A stretch of 64,000 nucleotides of DNA from Halogranum rubrum. Lineage in GTDB: Archaea; Halobacteriota; Halobacteria; Halobacteriales; Haloferacaceae. The position numbers and the translations under genes are program-made. The stretch is from NCBI RefSeq assembly GCF_900114455.1, contig NZ_FOTC01000002.1:62001-126000 (forward strand), in the 5' to 3' direction. Positions within the stretch are counted from its first letter, which is position 1. Each line of letters opens with the position of its first letter. Of the stretch, positions 3,643 to 9,342 are shown in pieces. The notes under the pieces are model-generated. The model saw only the letters and a program-made list of their open reading frames with translations. It was not told the DNA's origin and searched no databases.

Positions 3643-4827
3643 CTACTCCGTACTGGCTTTCGGGGAATTCGTCGCCTCGCGCTCGTCGACTGGCGTCCAC
3701 GTCCGGCCACGGTCACCAACGTAGACAGACAGGGGACGGACGATTCTGTTGTCGGCCATCTGTTCCAGACAGTGAGCGACCCAGCCACCGACTCGGGAGA
3801 CGGCGAACGTCGCGGTGAAGAGTTCTCGTGGGATGCCGACGCCGTACAGGAGGACGGCCGTGTAGAACTCGACGTTCGTCTCCAGCGGTCGGTCGGGTTT
3901 GTGTTCGGCGAGTCGACTGACTGCCCGCGCTTCGAACCCTTCGACGAAGTCGAAGAACGCTTCGTCGCCCGCATCGGCGTAGAACCGCTCGGCGGCACCG
4001 GAGAGAACCGTCGCACGCGGGTCACGCGTGCGATAGACTCGATGACCGAATCCCATCAGCCGTTCACCGGCGTCGAGTGTCTCCTGTAGATACCCCTCCG
4101 GGTCGCCGGACTCGTAGACGGTGAGGAGCATCTCCAACACCGGCCCCGGCGCGCCGCCGTGAAGCGGGCCCTTCAGCGACCCGACCGCACCCGTCACGGC
4201 CGAGACGAGGTCCGACTCGGACGACGTGATGGAGCGAGCGACGAAGGTAGAGGCGTTCAACCCGTGGTCGACGACTGTGTTGAGGTAGGTTTCGAGTCCT
4301 CGCACGGCCGCCGGGTCGGGTTCGTCACCCGACAGCATGTAGAGGTAGTTCGCGGCGTGGCCGAGGTCCTCGCGCGGTTCTACTGGCGCGTCGCCCGAGC
4401 GGTACCGCCAGTACGTCGCGACGATGGTCGGTATCACACTCACCAGTCGCTTCGCGTACTCTCTCGCTTCCGTCGGTTCCGTCGGTTCCGTCGCGTCGAC
4501 GCCGAGGTTCGCCGCGGCGACACCCATCCGTAGCGCGTCCATCGCATCTACGTTCTCGCGTGCCGCGCGTCGAAGCACCTGCTCGACTTCCTCGGAGAGT
4601 GTTCGGTAGCCTGCAAGTTCCGTGCGGAACGAGTCGAGTTCCGCCGCCGTCGGCAGTCGGTCGTTGAGCAGCAAGAACACACTCTCCTCGTAGGTTGCAC
4701 GTGTGGCGAGTCCTTCGACGGGGAACCCGCCGATGACGAGTTCGCCTCGCTCGCCGTCGATACTGCTGAGTCGCGTCTCCGCGACGGCGATACCCTCCAA
4801 TCCTCGGTGAAGCTCTCGGTCGGCCAT
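3643..4827 (-). CDS. Citrate synthase paralogue (citrate/2-methylcitrate synthase family)
   Basis: This 394-residue protein condenses acetyl-CoA (or propionyl-CoA) with oxaloacetate. It has the prokaryotic citrate synthase layout. Aligned by eye to characterised archaeal enzymes, the active-site residues are His188 in DHGLNAST, His223 in LHGGAPG and His262 in GFGHRVYR. The general base, normally Asp in NVDFYSA, appears as Glu320 in NVEFYTA; Glu occurs here in some bacterial paralogues, so activity is not excluded. The departure from the canonical Asp motif suggests it is not the main TCA enzyme. A small TEPTEPTEA tandem lies at 113-121. It sits 238 bases downstream of, and on the same strand as, a second paralogue fused to a DNA-binding domain. 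Confidence 0.9.
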   Translation of the reverse strand: MADRELHRGLEGIAVAETRLSSIDGERGELVIGGFPVEGLATRATYEESVFLLLNDRLPTAAELDSFRTELAGYRTLSEEVEQVLRRAARENVDAMDALRMGVAAANLGVDATEPTEPTEAREYAKRLVSVIPTIVATYWRYRSGDAPVEPREDLGHAANYLYMLSGDEPDPAAVRGLETYLNTVVDHGLNASTFVARSITSSESDLVSAVTGAVGSLKGPLHGGAPGPVLEMLLTVYESGDPEGYLQETLDAGERLMGFGHRVYRTRDPRATVLSGAAERFYADAGDEAFFDFVEGFEARAVSRLAEHKPDRPLETNVEFYTAVLLYGVGIPRELFTATFAVSRVGGWVAHCLEQMADNRIVRPLSVYVGDRGRTWTPVDEREATNSPKASTE

Positions 4828-5065
4828 TCGTTCGAATAGAGAGACGAGAGCGTCGGAGATAGCGTTTCGGAGAATACGATTTCCCCTCTACATCACCCAG
4901 CAGCCAACACGGAAGCGCGACCAGCCTGTGGGCAGGTTTGGTCTCGTAGTTCTCCGCTCCCGGACGACGCATGGAGACGCCGCTACCGGCGGTCGCTGGC
5001 CGTTTACTCGTCATAAAACCGTCTCACTGCCGTAGGGTAACGCGGCTTCCCCCTATCTCCGGTCC

Positions 5066-6544
5066 TCAGTCCGCCTCTTCGACCGTTCGCGCGAGTAGTT
5101 GCTCGTCGTCGAGGAGCATCTCGACGACTCGCCGACCGGTATCGGACAACGAGTACCCGGCGTCCGTGTTCGTGAGATAGCGACTCCGGAGCTTCCGGAG
5201 GTGATAGTTGAACCGCCCCTTGTCGTCGATGGAACTCCGCGCCCGAATCGCCGAGTAGGAGAGTGGTTCCGCCGACTCGTACAGAATCAACAGTAACTCC
5301 AACCGAGCCGGTTCCGCGAGCGTGCTGAGAACCGAGGAGATTCCCGTCAGGTCGGTGGACGACGGCGTGCCCGCGTCGTCGCCGACGCCTCTGTCCGAGC
5401 GCGGAATCCACTGTCGTCGCTCTGGTCCGACGTATCTCGTTCGCGGTCTGAGCAGCGTCTCGCTTTCGAGCTGTTCGAGATAGTGCGCCATCCAGCCCGC
5501 AGAGCGCCCGATGGCGAAGACCGCAGTGAAAAGCTCGGGTGGGACGTCGAGTTCGGAGAGGAGAACGGCCGCGTAGTAGTCGACGGTAGCGTGAATCTGC
5601 CGCGTCGGCTCGTGTGTCGTGAAGTACTCCTCGGCGGCCGTTTCGAGCTGTTGTGCGCTACTGAGCAACGACTTCGACTCTCGGCTCTCGCCGTCGCGCT
5701 CGGCTGCCTGCTCGCCGACGCGCTCGGCCGCTCGTTCGAGGACGCCCGCTCGCGGGTCTCGGGTCTCGTAGACGGCGTGACCGAACCCGGGTACCGACCC
5801 GTCGGCTTCCAGTCGTGTCCGAACCACTGCTGTCGGGTCCACCGTCTCGTCGAGGTCCGTGAGCAGTTCGAGCGTTCGTTCGAGTGCGCCCCCGTGTCGT
5901 GGTCCTTTGAGTGCACCCACGGCAGCGGTCGCCGCCGAGAGTGGGTCAGAGCCAGTCGACCCGACGAGACGCGCCGCGAACGTCGAGGCGTTGAGGCCGC
6001 GCTCGACGATGGTCGTCAGATACGTCTCTAGTCCGTCTACCGTCGACTTCTCCGGCGTCGTCCCGGAGAGCATGTACAAGAAGTTAGCCGTGTGTGCTAA
6101 GTCGTCACGTGGCTGTACGGGTTCTTTCCCCTGGCGATACCGCCAGTAGGCCGCGACGATGGTTGGACAGCTTGCGACGACGCGTCGAGTTGCGGCGAGG
6201 GTGTCCTCGCTGTCACAGTAGAGGTTACCTGCCCCGAGTCCCATTCGGAGGACGTCTATCGCCGGGACGCCCTCGTCGGCTCCGGCCCGAATCAGATTGT
6301 AGACGTCGTCTGTGAGACGTCGAGCGTCCGAGAGTTCGTCTGTGAACTCGACTAACTCTGTGTCGGTAGGGAGCCGTCCGTCGAACAACAACCACGCGAC
6401 CTCTTCGTACGTCGCATTCTCGGCGAGGGCTTCGACCGCGAACCCTTGGATTCGCAGTTCGCCGGTGTCGCCGTCGATTTCGCTGAGGCCCGTCTCAGCG
6501 ACTTCGGTGAAGGAGAGGCCAGGGTCGAAGACGGAGGGAGTCAC
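5066..6544 (-). CDS. Citrate synthase-like domain fused to a C-terminal winged-helix DNA-binding domain
   Basis: The protein has 492 residues, about 100 more than a prokaryotic citrate synthase. Residues 1 to about 385 are a full citrate synthase domain with LKGPRHGGA (His217), GFGHAVYETRDPR (His256) and VDYYAAVLL (Asp322). The oxaloacetate-binding His of the DHxLNAST motif is Arg182 (ERGLNAST), and the usual Arg in GHRVY is Ala257. Residues about 403-492 are a winged helix (LAEPARLELLLILYE, then GRFNYHLRKLRSRYL). This domain clearly resembles the N-terminal domain of the regulator at 19991-20869. One continuous frame with no stop or shift joins the two parts. I infer a metabolite-sensing transcription factor, possibly controlling the adjacent citrate synthase gene; residual catalysis cannot be excluded. 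Confidence 0.88.
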   Translation of the reverse strand: MTPSVFDPGLSFTEVAETGLSEIDGDTGELRIQGFAVEALAENATYEEVAWLLFDGRLPTDTELVEFTDELSDARRLTDDVYNLIRAGADEGVPAIDVLRMGLGAGNLYCDSEDTLAATRRVVASCPTIVAAYWRYRQGKEPVQPRDDLAHTANFLYMLSGTTPEKSTVDGLETYLTTIVERGLNASTFAARLVGSTGSDPLSAATAAVGALKGPRHGGALERTLELLTDLDETVDPTAVVRTRLEADGSVPGFGHAVYETRDPRAGVLERAAERVGEQAAERDGESRESKSLLSSAQQLETAAEEYFTTHEPTRQIHATVDYYAAVLLSELDVPPELFTAVFAIGRSAGWMAHYLEQLESETLLRPRTRYVGPERRQWIPRSDRGVGDDAGTPSSTDLTGISSVLSTLAEPARLELLLILYESAEPLSYSAIRARSSIDDKGRFNYHLRKLRSRYLTNTDAGYSLSDTGRRVVEMLLDDEQLLARTVEEAD

Positions 6545-6954
6545 GGTCTCTCAGATATCTTCGGTACGTCGGCAACAGTGTTACGGCGAATCTGCTCCGT
6601 CGAGTCGAGAGGGTAGCTCTTCGTCCGACGACGCCTGTCTCACAGGTGGAGTTCGATACAGTCTCACTCTCAGTCCCGCGTTTCGGCTACCCGGCCAGAC
6701 GACTGACGTTGTTCGCGTGGCTACGACCGTGGAACTACCAGATTCTGTATGTGTTCTGGGTCTCCTCTCTACCTCCTCCAGAACGACGTCGTTTCTACCG
6801 CCCCGACGGAGGGGGCTTGAGACGGCTTCTCTGTGGTAAACTGTGACCCACTGACCGGCCGGTAACCGAGGTTTCTATCCGGTAACTACGTTCGATTACT
6901 TCATTGTTAGATTATTGTTAAGTATGGAAAGTAGGACAGTCTGTAGTAGACACA
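6545..6954. other. Intergenic region, divergent promoters
   Basis: This 410-base gap separates the divergently transcribed citrate synthase fusion and the exported hydrolase. The 3' end is AT-rich (GTTAGATTATTGTTAAGTATG, about 6905-6925) and probably holds the promoter of the gene at 6955. A 66-codon open frame at 6646-6846 has no recognisable features or acidic composition and is not called. I see no RNA gene here. Confidence 0.5.
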
Positions 6955-9342
6955 ATGCCTGAGAACCCATCCACCGACGACCCGGCAACCACTTCACGAC
7001 GCGGTTTTCTCAAAGCAGCAGCGACCCTCAGTCTCGCAGGAAGCGCAGTCTCCGCGACGAGCCAGCAGGTCGCCGCAGCGAGTCGAGACAGCTACACGAT
7101 TCTCGACGGCACCATCTACGAGACGTCGGTTCACGTCTACGACTCCGGAAACGACGGCCCGACGACGTTCATCACGGGTGGCATCCACGGCGACGAACGC
7201 AGCGGCTTCATGGCCGCCGAAGAGATAGCCACGTGGACGGTGGACCACGGCAAACTCGTCGTCATCCCCCGCGCGAACGTCCCGGCAATCGACGCACTCG
7301 ACCGTCACGGCCCCGAAGGCGACCTGAACCGACAGTTCCCGCCCCGAAGCGGCGAGTGCTACACCGATATCGCCCGTGCCATCTGGGAAGAGGTCGTGAG
7401 ACACGACCCCGACTTCGCGTTCGACCTCCACTCCGCACGCGGTATCTGGCGCTCCGGTGACGGCAGTGTCGGACAAGCGGTGTTCCCGACGTGGACCTCG
7501 CCTGCTCGTGACTACGGTGAGAACGCCATCGCCGACCTGAACGACGAGTTCGGTCTCACCGGCGACATGGCCTACCTGATGGGTAACACCCTCGACGCCG
7601 ACCGCAAGATGCTCATGCACCGCATCGCGGGCTATCTCGACGTCCCCGGGTTCCTCTGTGAGACGACCGAGAAGGCCGACTCGCTGGAAGAACAGATTCA
7701 GTGGCATCTCTTCACGGTCGACCACATCATGAACCAGTACGGTCAGTCGCCGAACGCGGACGGGTCCAAGAGTGACTCCTCGAACTCCAGCAGTTCCGAC
7801 GAACCGTCCGAGAGCGAACTCCACATCGAGGGCACCGGTCCGGTCGTCCGCTTCGAGTTCTCCGTCTCCGGTGGCGTCGAGAACGCGGGGACGCTCGAAG
7901 ATTCGGACACCGTCTACGACAGTCGCGTCACCGGCCAGGTGTCCTCGCAGGACGACCGCTACGCGTTCACGGGCGACCTCGAACACTTCACCGTCACCGA
8001 GGGCGACAAAGAGGACGTCAACGTCTACCTCGACGGCGAGCAGATTTCGGTCGACCAAGAGACCGACGAACGCGAGGTTCACATCGAAGGAACTGGCCCG
8101 GTCGTTCGTTTCGAATTCGCCGTCTCCGGCGACGTCGAGAACGCGGGCACGCTCGAAGACAGCGACACCGTCTACGACAGTCGCGTCACCGGCCAGGTCT
8201 CCTCACAGGACGACCGCTACGCGTTCACGGGTGAACTCGAACACTTCACCGTCACCGAGGGCGACAAAGAGGACGTCAACGTCTACCTCGACGGCGAACA
8301 GATCTCGGTCGACCAAGAGACCGACGAGCGTGAGATTCACATCGAGGGAACCGGCCCGGTCGTTCGCTTCGAGTTCTCCGTCTCCGGCGGCGTCGAGAAC
8401 GCGGGGACGCTCGAAGATTCGGACACCGTCTACGACAGTCGTGTCGAAGGCCAAGTCTCCTCACAGGACGACCGCTACGCGTTCACGGGCGACCTCGAAC
8501 ACTTCACCGTCACCGAGGGCGACAAAGAGGACGTCAACGTCTACCTCGACGGCGAGCAGATTTCGGTCCGGGAGGAGAACCCCGAGAAGATTCTGCACAT
8601 CGGCGGCACCGGTCCAGTGACCCGCTTCGAGTTCTCGGTGTCGGGTGACCTCCGGAACACGGGGACGCTCGAAGACAGCGACACCGTCTACGACAGTCGC
8701 GTCGAAGGACAGGTGTCCTCACAGGACGACGAGTTCGCCTACACGGGCGAGTTGGAGCACTTCACCGTCACGTACGGCAACAAGGAAGACGTCGTCGTCA
8801 CCGTCGACGGCGACCGGATTTCGGTCCAAGAGGAGACCCCCGAGAAGATTCTCCACATCGGCGGGACTGGCCCTGTTACGCGCTTCGAGTTCTCGGTGTC
8901 GGGCGACCTCCGGAACACGGGGACGCTCGAAGATTCGGACACTGTCTACGACAGTCGTGTCGAGGGGCAAGTCTCCTCGCAGGACGACGAGTTCGCCTAC
9001 ACGGGCGAGTTAGAGCACTTCACCGTCACGCACGGACGTGCGAGCGACGTCGACGTCACCGTCGACGGCGAACAGATTTCGGTCGAAGAAGAGACCCACC
9101 TCATCGAAATCCGAGGCACCGGCCCGGTCGTCCGCTTCGAGTTCGCCGTCTCCGGCGACCTACGGAACGCGGGGACGCTCGAAGACAGCGACACCCTGTA
9201 CGACCACAGCGTCGATGGCCAGGTCTCCTCGCAGGACGACGCCTTCGAGTACACCGGCGAACTCGAACACTTCGACGTCACCTACGGGAGCGCAGACGAC
9301 ATCGTCGTCGTCGTCGACGGGTCGGAGATGAACGTCGCGTAG
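6955..9342 (+). CDS. Tat-exported succinylglutamate desuccinylase/aspartoacylase-type hydrolase with six C-terminal repeats
   Basis: The 795-residue protein starts with a twin-arginine signal (TSRRGFLKAAATLSLAGSAV, Arg15-Arg16), so it is exported folded. Residues about 45-265 form an AstE/AspA zinc hydrolase related to M14 carboxypeptidases: GGIHGDERSG gives His78 and Glu81, FDLHSAR gives His159, and FLCETTEKAD gives the probable catalytic Glu236. A Ser/Asp-rich linker follows (about 266-287). Then come six tandem repeats of 84-86 residues, each containing GTGPV(V/T)RFEF(S/A)VSG, GTLEDSDT and GQVSSQDD; they look like beta-rich binding or spacer modules. There is no C-terminal membrane anchor. 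The substrate is unknown; an extracellular amidase or carboxypeptidase role is inference. The gene stands alone. Confidence 0.88.
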   Translation: MPENPSTDDPATTSRRGFLKAAATLSLAGSAVSATSQQVAAASRDSYTILDGTIYETSVHVYDSGNDGPTTFITGGIHGDERSGFMAAEEIATWTVDHGKLVVIPRANVPAIDALDRHGPEGDLNRQFPPRSGECYTDIARAIWEEVVRHDPDFAFDLHSARGIWRSGDGSVGQAVFPTWTSPARDYGENAIADLNDEFGLTGDMAYLMGNTLDADRKMLMHRIAGYLDVPGFLCETTEKADSLEEQIQWHLFTVDHIMNQYGQSPNADGSKSDSSNSSSSDEPSESELHIEGTGPVVRFEFSVSGGVENAGTLEDSDTVYDSRVTGQVSSQDDRYAFTGDLEHFTVTEGDKEDVNVYLDGEQISVDQETDEREVHIEGTGPVVRFEFAVSGDVENAGTLEDSDTVYDSRVTGQVSSQDDRYAFTGELEHFTVTEGDKEDVNVYLDGEQISVDQETDEREIHIEGTGPVVRFEFSVSGGVENAGTLEDSDTVYDSRVEGQVSSQDDRYAFTGDLEHFTVTEGDKEDVNVYLDGEQISVREENPEKILHIGGTGPVTRFEFSVSGDLRNTGTLEDSDTVYDSRVEGQVSSQDDEFAYTGELEHFTVTYGNKEDVVVTVDGDRISVQEETPEKILHIGGTGPVTRFEFSVSGDLRNTGTLEDSDTVYDSRVEGQVSSQDDEFAYTGELEHFTVTHGRASDVDVTVDGEQISVEEETHLIEIRGTGPVVRFEFAVSGDLRNAGTLEDSDTLYDHSVDGQVSSQDDAFEYTGELEHFDVTYGSADDIVVVVDGSEMNVA
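7816..9339 (+). repeat. Six in-frame tandem repeats of about 258 bp
   Basis: Units begin at 7816, 8074, 8332, 8590, 8848 and 9100. The first four steps are exactly 258 bases and the fifth is 252. The first three units are nearly identical at the DNA level, and units 4 and 5 form a second close pair. All lie inside the exported hydrolase gene and encode its C-terminal modules. The long, high-identity, head-to-tail units suggest recent duplication or gene conversion. Confidence 0.95.

Follow-up and report, generated by a model that had tools for sequence, protein, structure and literature searches.

A Halogranum rubrum protein in which a citrate synthase (CS) is joined to a C-terminal winged helix is best read as a CS-derived one-component regulator, likely dedicated to the CitA-like CS gene beside it. 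The fusion, its conservation, its strict pairing with an unfused partner gene, a palindrome between the two genes, the fixed position of this palindrome in the partner promoter and its co-occurrence with the fusion are established; we infer that the protein binds DNA and forms a dimer, and likewise infer its ligand and whether it activates or represses. The window is the whole stretch of DNA that was analysed, 64,000 nucleotides long, and the features that concern us are:

5066-6544, minus strand: fusion gene, 492 aa, comprising a CS domain, a linker and a C-terminal winged helix, with a GTG start at 6544
5390-6520, minus strand: CS domain, PF00285, residues 9-385, from Pfam and active-site columns
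5999-6001, minus strand: codon (CGC) for Arg182, which replaces the oxaloacetate-binding His seen in the 18 other fusions
5339-5389, minus strand: flexible linker, residues 386-402, with pLDDT <50 at 388-393 (AlphaFold)
5111-5338, minus strand: winged helix, PF24038 DUF7347, residues 403-478, with the near-invariant recognition helix DKGRFNYHLRxLR
5035-5052, minus strand: distal palindrome copy, GGGGAAGCCGCGTTACCC, 9/12 matches by consensus scoring
4869-4886, minus strand: proximal palindrome, GGGGAAATCGTATTCTCC, 11/12 matches, unique in the 4.57-Mb genome as a strict match
4858-4868, minus strand: putative BRE/TATA of the partner gene, GAAACGCTATC, TA at 4860-4861, at a fixed spacing to the palindrome in 18/18 aligned promoters
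3643-4827, minus strand: unfused CS partner, 394 aa, with DHGLNAST, GPLHGGAP and GFGH motifs intact and Glu at the catalytic Asp position

The fusion is encoded in a single open frame. Pfam aligns PF00285 to residues 9-368 with 338 bits over 357/357 profile positions, which meets the criterion of a full-length match, and PF24038 DUF7347 to residues 405-476 with an E of 1.4e-19 and 70.6 bits against a gathering score of 27.6. The AlphaFold model (mean pLDDT 84.5) shows a CS fold and, beyond residues 388-393, which are disordered, a distinct winged helix that spans about 400-480. By structure comparison its CS part resembles solved citrate synthases, and the winged helix, which reaches a pLDDT of 86.5 when modelled alone, resembles YodB, HxlR, DNA-bound QsrR, CzrA, SmtB and Halobacterium RosR, its fold being like that of ArsR, HxlR and MarR winged helices (Z approximately 10-12). 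Because orthologous fusions exist in 18 other species, a sequencing or assembly artefact, or chance, is ruled out and the fusion is real. The original prediction, made from the sequence alone, of one frame joining a full CS domain to a C-terminal winged helix thus held on the evidence of Pfam, AlphaFold and the 18 orthologues; it had given no strand, which is minus.

Two criteria for a one-component regulator are also met: a DNA-binding domain and a possible ligand-binding domain lie in one chain, and a conserved operator-like site is tied to the gene (19/19 intergenics), its binding being inferred. Besides the two CS genes in the window, the genome has a third, of haloarchaeal type, which lies elsewhere and is the genome's best Pfam CS match (452 bits). 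The fusion, at 320.8 bits, misses the cut-off of 550 for haloarchaeal CitZ (NF041301), as does the partner at 379.1. Eleven further DUF7347 matches are found in the same genome.

We searched the genomes of four haloarchaeal families for the fusion (E up to 1e-90) and found it in 19 species, the window genome included, carried by 2/170, 8/146, 8/125 and 1/28 genomes of families f1, f4, f7 and f17. Natrialba sp. SSL1, Halobacteriales archaeon YIM A00010 and Actinarchaeum halophilum are among the named carriers. Sampling the order with a looser criterion returned no fusions beyond members of this same set, and a 393-genome sample of the phylum (E up to 1e-110, a threshold that would miss distant ones) returned no further fusions. 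The two-domain order is thus not confined to this genome, and the partner always lies downstream. The original prediction set this order apart from N-terminal helix-turn-helix fusions to CS-like domains in actinobacteria; in L055, L062 and L070, three CS loci from bacteria whose frames are long, Pfam detected no helix-turn-helix domain.

All 19 fusion genomes have an unfused CS paralogue downstream of the fusion on the same strand, usually 156-305 bp off. This pair is the only conserved unit. Across clades, the first ten fusion loci that were compared have no other neighbour in common, the varied neighbours including a Thi4-like gene, an integrase, an MFS transporter, NOG1 and a MoxR-type ATPase, and a conserved operon with further genes is thereby ruled out. 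The paralogue without a fusion is frequent (>50 genomes); no fusion without the paralogue was seen among the fusion genomes found. The pairwise identities among fusions track those among partners (Mantel r 0.86, 0/5000 permutations), as expected of genes inherited together. Elsewhere in the window, positions 6955-9342 encode a predicted exported protein whose N-terminal part resembles succinylglutamate desuccinylase and is followed by about six repeats (IEGTGPVVRFEFxVSG) of roughly 90 residues each.

The fusions are monophyletic in our tree (SH-aLRT 99), in a clade that sits inside a haloarchaeal CS paralogue group well apart from CitZ. Their nearest kin are the partner genes, and a group of the fusions with most partners is supported at 92. 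The fusions evolve faster than the partners. Within the fusion, purifying selection acts more strongly on the winged helix than on the CS half, with dN/dS of 0.03-0.15 against 0.14-0.36 in five pairs, and the recognition helix is the most conserved part.

Alignment of the fusion-partner intergenics revealed an 18-bp palindrome, GGAGAA-N6-TTCTCC. The best site has at least 11/12 matches in 19/19 of these intergenics, most of which hold two copies, the distal one 84-188 bp upstream of the proximal (approximately 168 in close relatives). A site of this quality occurs upstream of only 1/51 paralogues without a fusion, that of genome G092 (11 matches, N6 spacing), and this sole exception belongs to a recent relative of the partner genes. 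The difference is significant (Fisher 3e-16, relatedness not corrected); the motif was found from these same promoters, so that the significance is post hoc, and it holds across deeply diverged groups. The region between the two genes (4828-5065), proposed beforehand as a binding candidate, holds both palindromes. The region upstream of the fusion (6545-6954), also proposed, holds none; upstream of the fusions generally the palindrome score is at most 9/12, near the shuffled level of about 8, and autoregulation through this motif is not supported.

The spacing from the proximal palindrome to the TA dinucleotide is invariant in 18 promoters. If this TA is placed at -27/-26, following the promoter layout described in PMC4158304, purines stand at the expected BRE adenines (-34/-33) in these promoters. 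The same placement puts the start codon at +1 in genome G159, giving a leaderless transcript; in the window the partner start codon is 7 bases further than in G159.

We then asked how often a strict form of the pattern, GGRGAAN6TTCYCC, occurs genome-wide. It occurs once in the 4.57-Mb H. rubrum genome, at 4869-4886 of the window, and in the intergenic of 18/19 fusion genomes, the remaining one (G031) being one mismatch away. The pattern read backward as a control gave zero matches in 20 genomes. Sixty genomes of the same family average about one strict match each or fewer, so most other strict matches are expected by chance. The extra matches in fusion genomes are few, many lie within predicted genes and their rate is about this background, which rules out a larger regulon by this measure. 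Since strict matches elsewhere are at about background, the regulator, if it does bind the palindrome, would likely have in essence one target; the binding itself is inferred.

Exact palindromes outside the fusion loci adjoin unrelated DUF7347 regulator genes in three genomes. In G438 the palindrome lies between a DUF7347-DUF7351 gene and its divergent neighbour, and in G211 it lies just downstream of such a gene, ahead of the next gene. In G481 exact palindromes (L220:2070 and L220:4112) flank a free-standing 112-aa winged helix (L220:2505-2843) that scores 96 bits against the profile of the fusion winged helix, and one copy is just upstream of an AzlC-like transporter gene. We left out of this count a DUF7347 gene approximately 1.2 kb from its palindrome (L228/L230), and the degenerate palindrome matches examined had no DUF7347 regulator gene within the stretch. 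G438 carries two near-identical stretches with the DUF7347-DUF7351 gene and the exact palindrome (L208:2533 and L209:2587). These adjacent palindromes give independent support to the inference that such winged helices read GGAGAA-N6-TTCTCC.

The window fusion retains His217, His256 and Asp322, as originally claimed, along with Arg265, Arg347 and Arg366. It thus meets the criterion of keeping the catalytic residues His274, His320 and Asp375 (pig numbering); it does not meet that of an oxaloacetate-binding His238, which is Arg182 here, and we therefore do not class the window protein as a working CS. This Arg182, also claimed originally, held for the window, but no other fusion shares the change, all 18 of them having His, which rules it out as a shared adaptation. 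It may spoil oxaloacetate binding in the window protein. Residue 322 is Asp or Glu among fusions, Glu in all partners and unfused paralogues examined and Asp in CitZ. Glu is also found at this position in Bacillus subtilis CitA (2c6x), the nearest solved relative of the partner, so Glu by itself is no sign of a dead enzyme. Consistent differences between fusions and partners near the active site and probable CoA site are L216R, which adjoins the catalytic His, P221L, and the absence in many fusions of Arg250 and Arg257, close to the second catalytic His; L216R and the loss of these two arginines could possibly weaken CoA binding, an inference from the residues. From the differences from partners and the Arg182 of the window we infer that the fusion is likely a sensor rather than an enzyme, above all in the window, with CS activity not excluded.

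Two genomes depart from the intact pair. In G071 an insert of approximately 3.5 kb (L077:9678-13096) parts the fusion from the partner; both palindromes remain at the partner promoter and none is left by the fusion stop. This insert carries two large predicted genes, of 415 and 359 aa, with no Pfam match. In G092 the fusion gene is absent, both palindromes are kept before the partner CS gene (L204:7740-7927) and the CS is close in sequence to partners from other genomes with the fusion, a state that suggests the fusion was lost recently. Three natural genetic states are thus available: pair intact, pair split and fusion lost.

The model we propose starts with a duplicated CitA-type citrate synthase that would have gained a DNA-binding domain. 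Dimerization is probably mediated by the CS half, which would also bind oxaloacetate, citrate or acetyl-CoA, and the C-terminal ArsR-like winged helix would bind GGAGAA-N6-TTCTCC. By inference from the known CS dimer, this fold would set two winged helices on the two half-sites. Ligand binding closes citrate synthase domains, and such closure could shift the winged-helix positions. The predicted target is the adjacent unfused CS gene, with its BRE/TATA directly beside the proximal palindrome; binding may be cooperative or looped, given the second palindrome 84-188 bp upstream of the proximal one. Archaeal TrmB activates from sites upstream of BRE/TATA and represses from sites downstream of or overlapping the BRE (PMC4158304, PMC10817205). 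Because the palindrome abuts but does not cover the presumed BRE, we lean slightly towards activation; this is inferred from site position, and a repressor blocking TFB remains possible. The original prediction had proposed a transcription factor with a citrate synthase sensor and the neighbouring CS gene as target, and the architecture, conservation over 19 species, strict pairing and palindrome support it, with binding, ligand and direction inferred. In its bolder form, which we credit by a modest margin, this factor reads oxaloacetate, citrate or acetyl-CoA and sets expression of its paralogue through two palindromes, one abutting the BRE/TATA, as a regulator with one target that arose when the enzyme under its control was duplicated.

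Several points could count against this model. It has no binding, expression or ligand data behind it, and another regulator could bind the palindrome. The sites kept without a fusion in G092, the Arg182 of the window and a position next to the BRE that leaves activation versus repression unsettled might also weigh against it. One rival is that the palindrome belongs to another DUF7347-type or an unrelated regulator and the fusion is uninvolved. The eleven other DUF7347 matches in the genome and the sites of G092 speak for this; we think it unlikely given sites at 19/19 promoters with the fusion against 1/51 without. Less plausible still is that the fusion is simply one more citrate synthase whose C-terminal extension has no function: its CS fold is intact, but the winged helix is conserved over 19 species and has a lower dN/dS (0.03-0.15) than the CS half (0.14-0.36).

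The closest competitor is a bifunctional trigger enzyme that has kept its CS activity while also binding the palindrome and regulating the partner, much as BirA is both ligase and repressor. In its favour, His217, His256, Asp/Glu322, Arg265, Arg347 and Arg366 are kept in 18 aligned fusions, and His182 in all but the window. However, fusions evolve faster than partners, active-site and probable CoA-site positions differ consistently and the window has Arg182, and we consider this reading clearly less likely than not. Fusion and partner could also form a mixed CS complex that the winged helix tethers or regulates, gene control being secondary. This possibility fits the close sequence kinship, constant pairing and correlated divergence of the two proteins, and the CS active site uses an Arg from the second subunit that is kept in both; it leaves unexplained the fixed-spacing palindrome at the partner promoter and the strong constraint on the recognition helix, and we rate it slightly below the trigger enzyme.

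Enzyme-derived regulators are already known; a citrate synthase joined to a winged helix was not reported in the open-access literature we searched and appears new on that basis. If the dedicated-regulator reading is true, it provides a sensor at the point where the citric acid cycle begins, together with a candidate operator and a single candidate target. The palindrome also suggests a DNA target for DUF7347, a domain of unknown function in haloarchaeal regulators. B. subtilis CitA, to which the partner is closer than to any other solved structure (310 bits), shares its GPLHGGAP and TNVEFY motifs and Glu for the catalytic Asp, and like the partner is a minor CS gene that has its own regulator gene alongside, a putative one in the haloarchaeal case. 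That neighbouring regulator is CitR, a LysR-type protein, whereas the putative haloarchaeal regulator is built from the very enzyme that it is proposed to control. The trigger enzymes BirA and PutA likewise join an enzyme fold to a DNA-binding domain; the fusion differs in its enzyme, its C-terminal winged helix and a predicted target that is a paralogue of the sensor, its own activity being unknown. Caulobacter CitA is a citrate synthase paralogue that, like the proposed role of the fusion, serves as a regulator, independently of catalytic activity (PMC7083601); it acts on CtrA by a route its authors suspect to be indirect, and no fused DNA-binding domain is described (PMC7083601). The haloarchaeal DUF7347-DUF7351 regulators have the same winged helix, with a D(K/N)G(R/Q/K)xNYHL recognition helix, and DUF7351 or nothing as second domain where the fusion has citrate synthase. 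Haloarchaeal TrmB is likewise a metabolite-sensing winged-helix regulator with palindromic sites near BRE/TATA (PMC4158304, PMC10817205), but its sensor domain is unrelated and it has several targets, where the fusion apparently has one.
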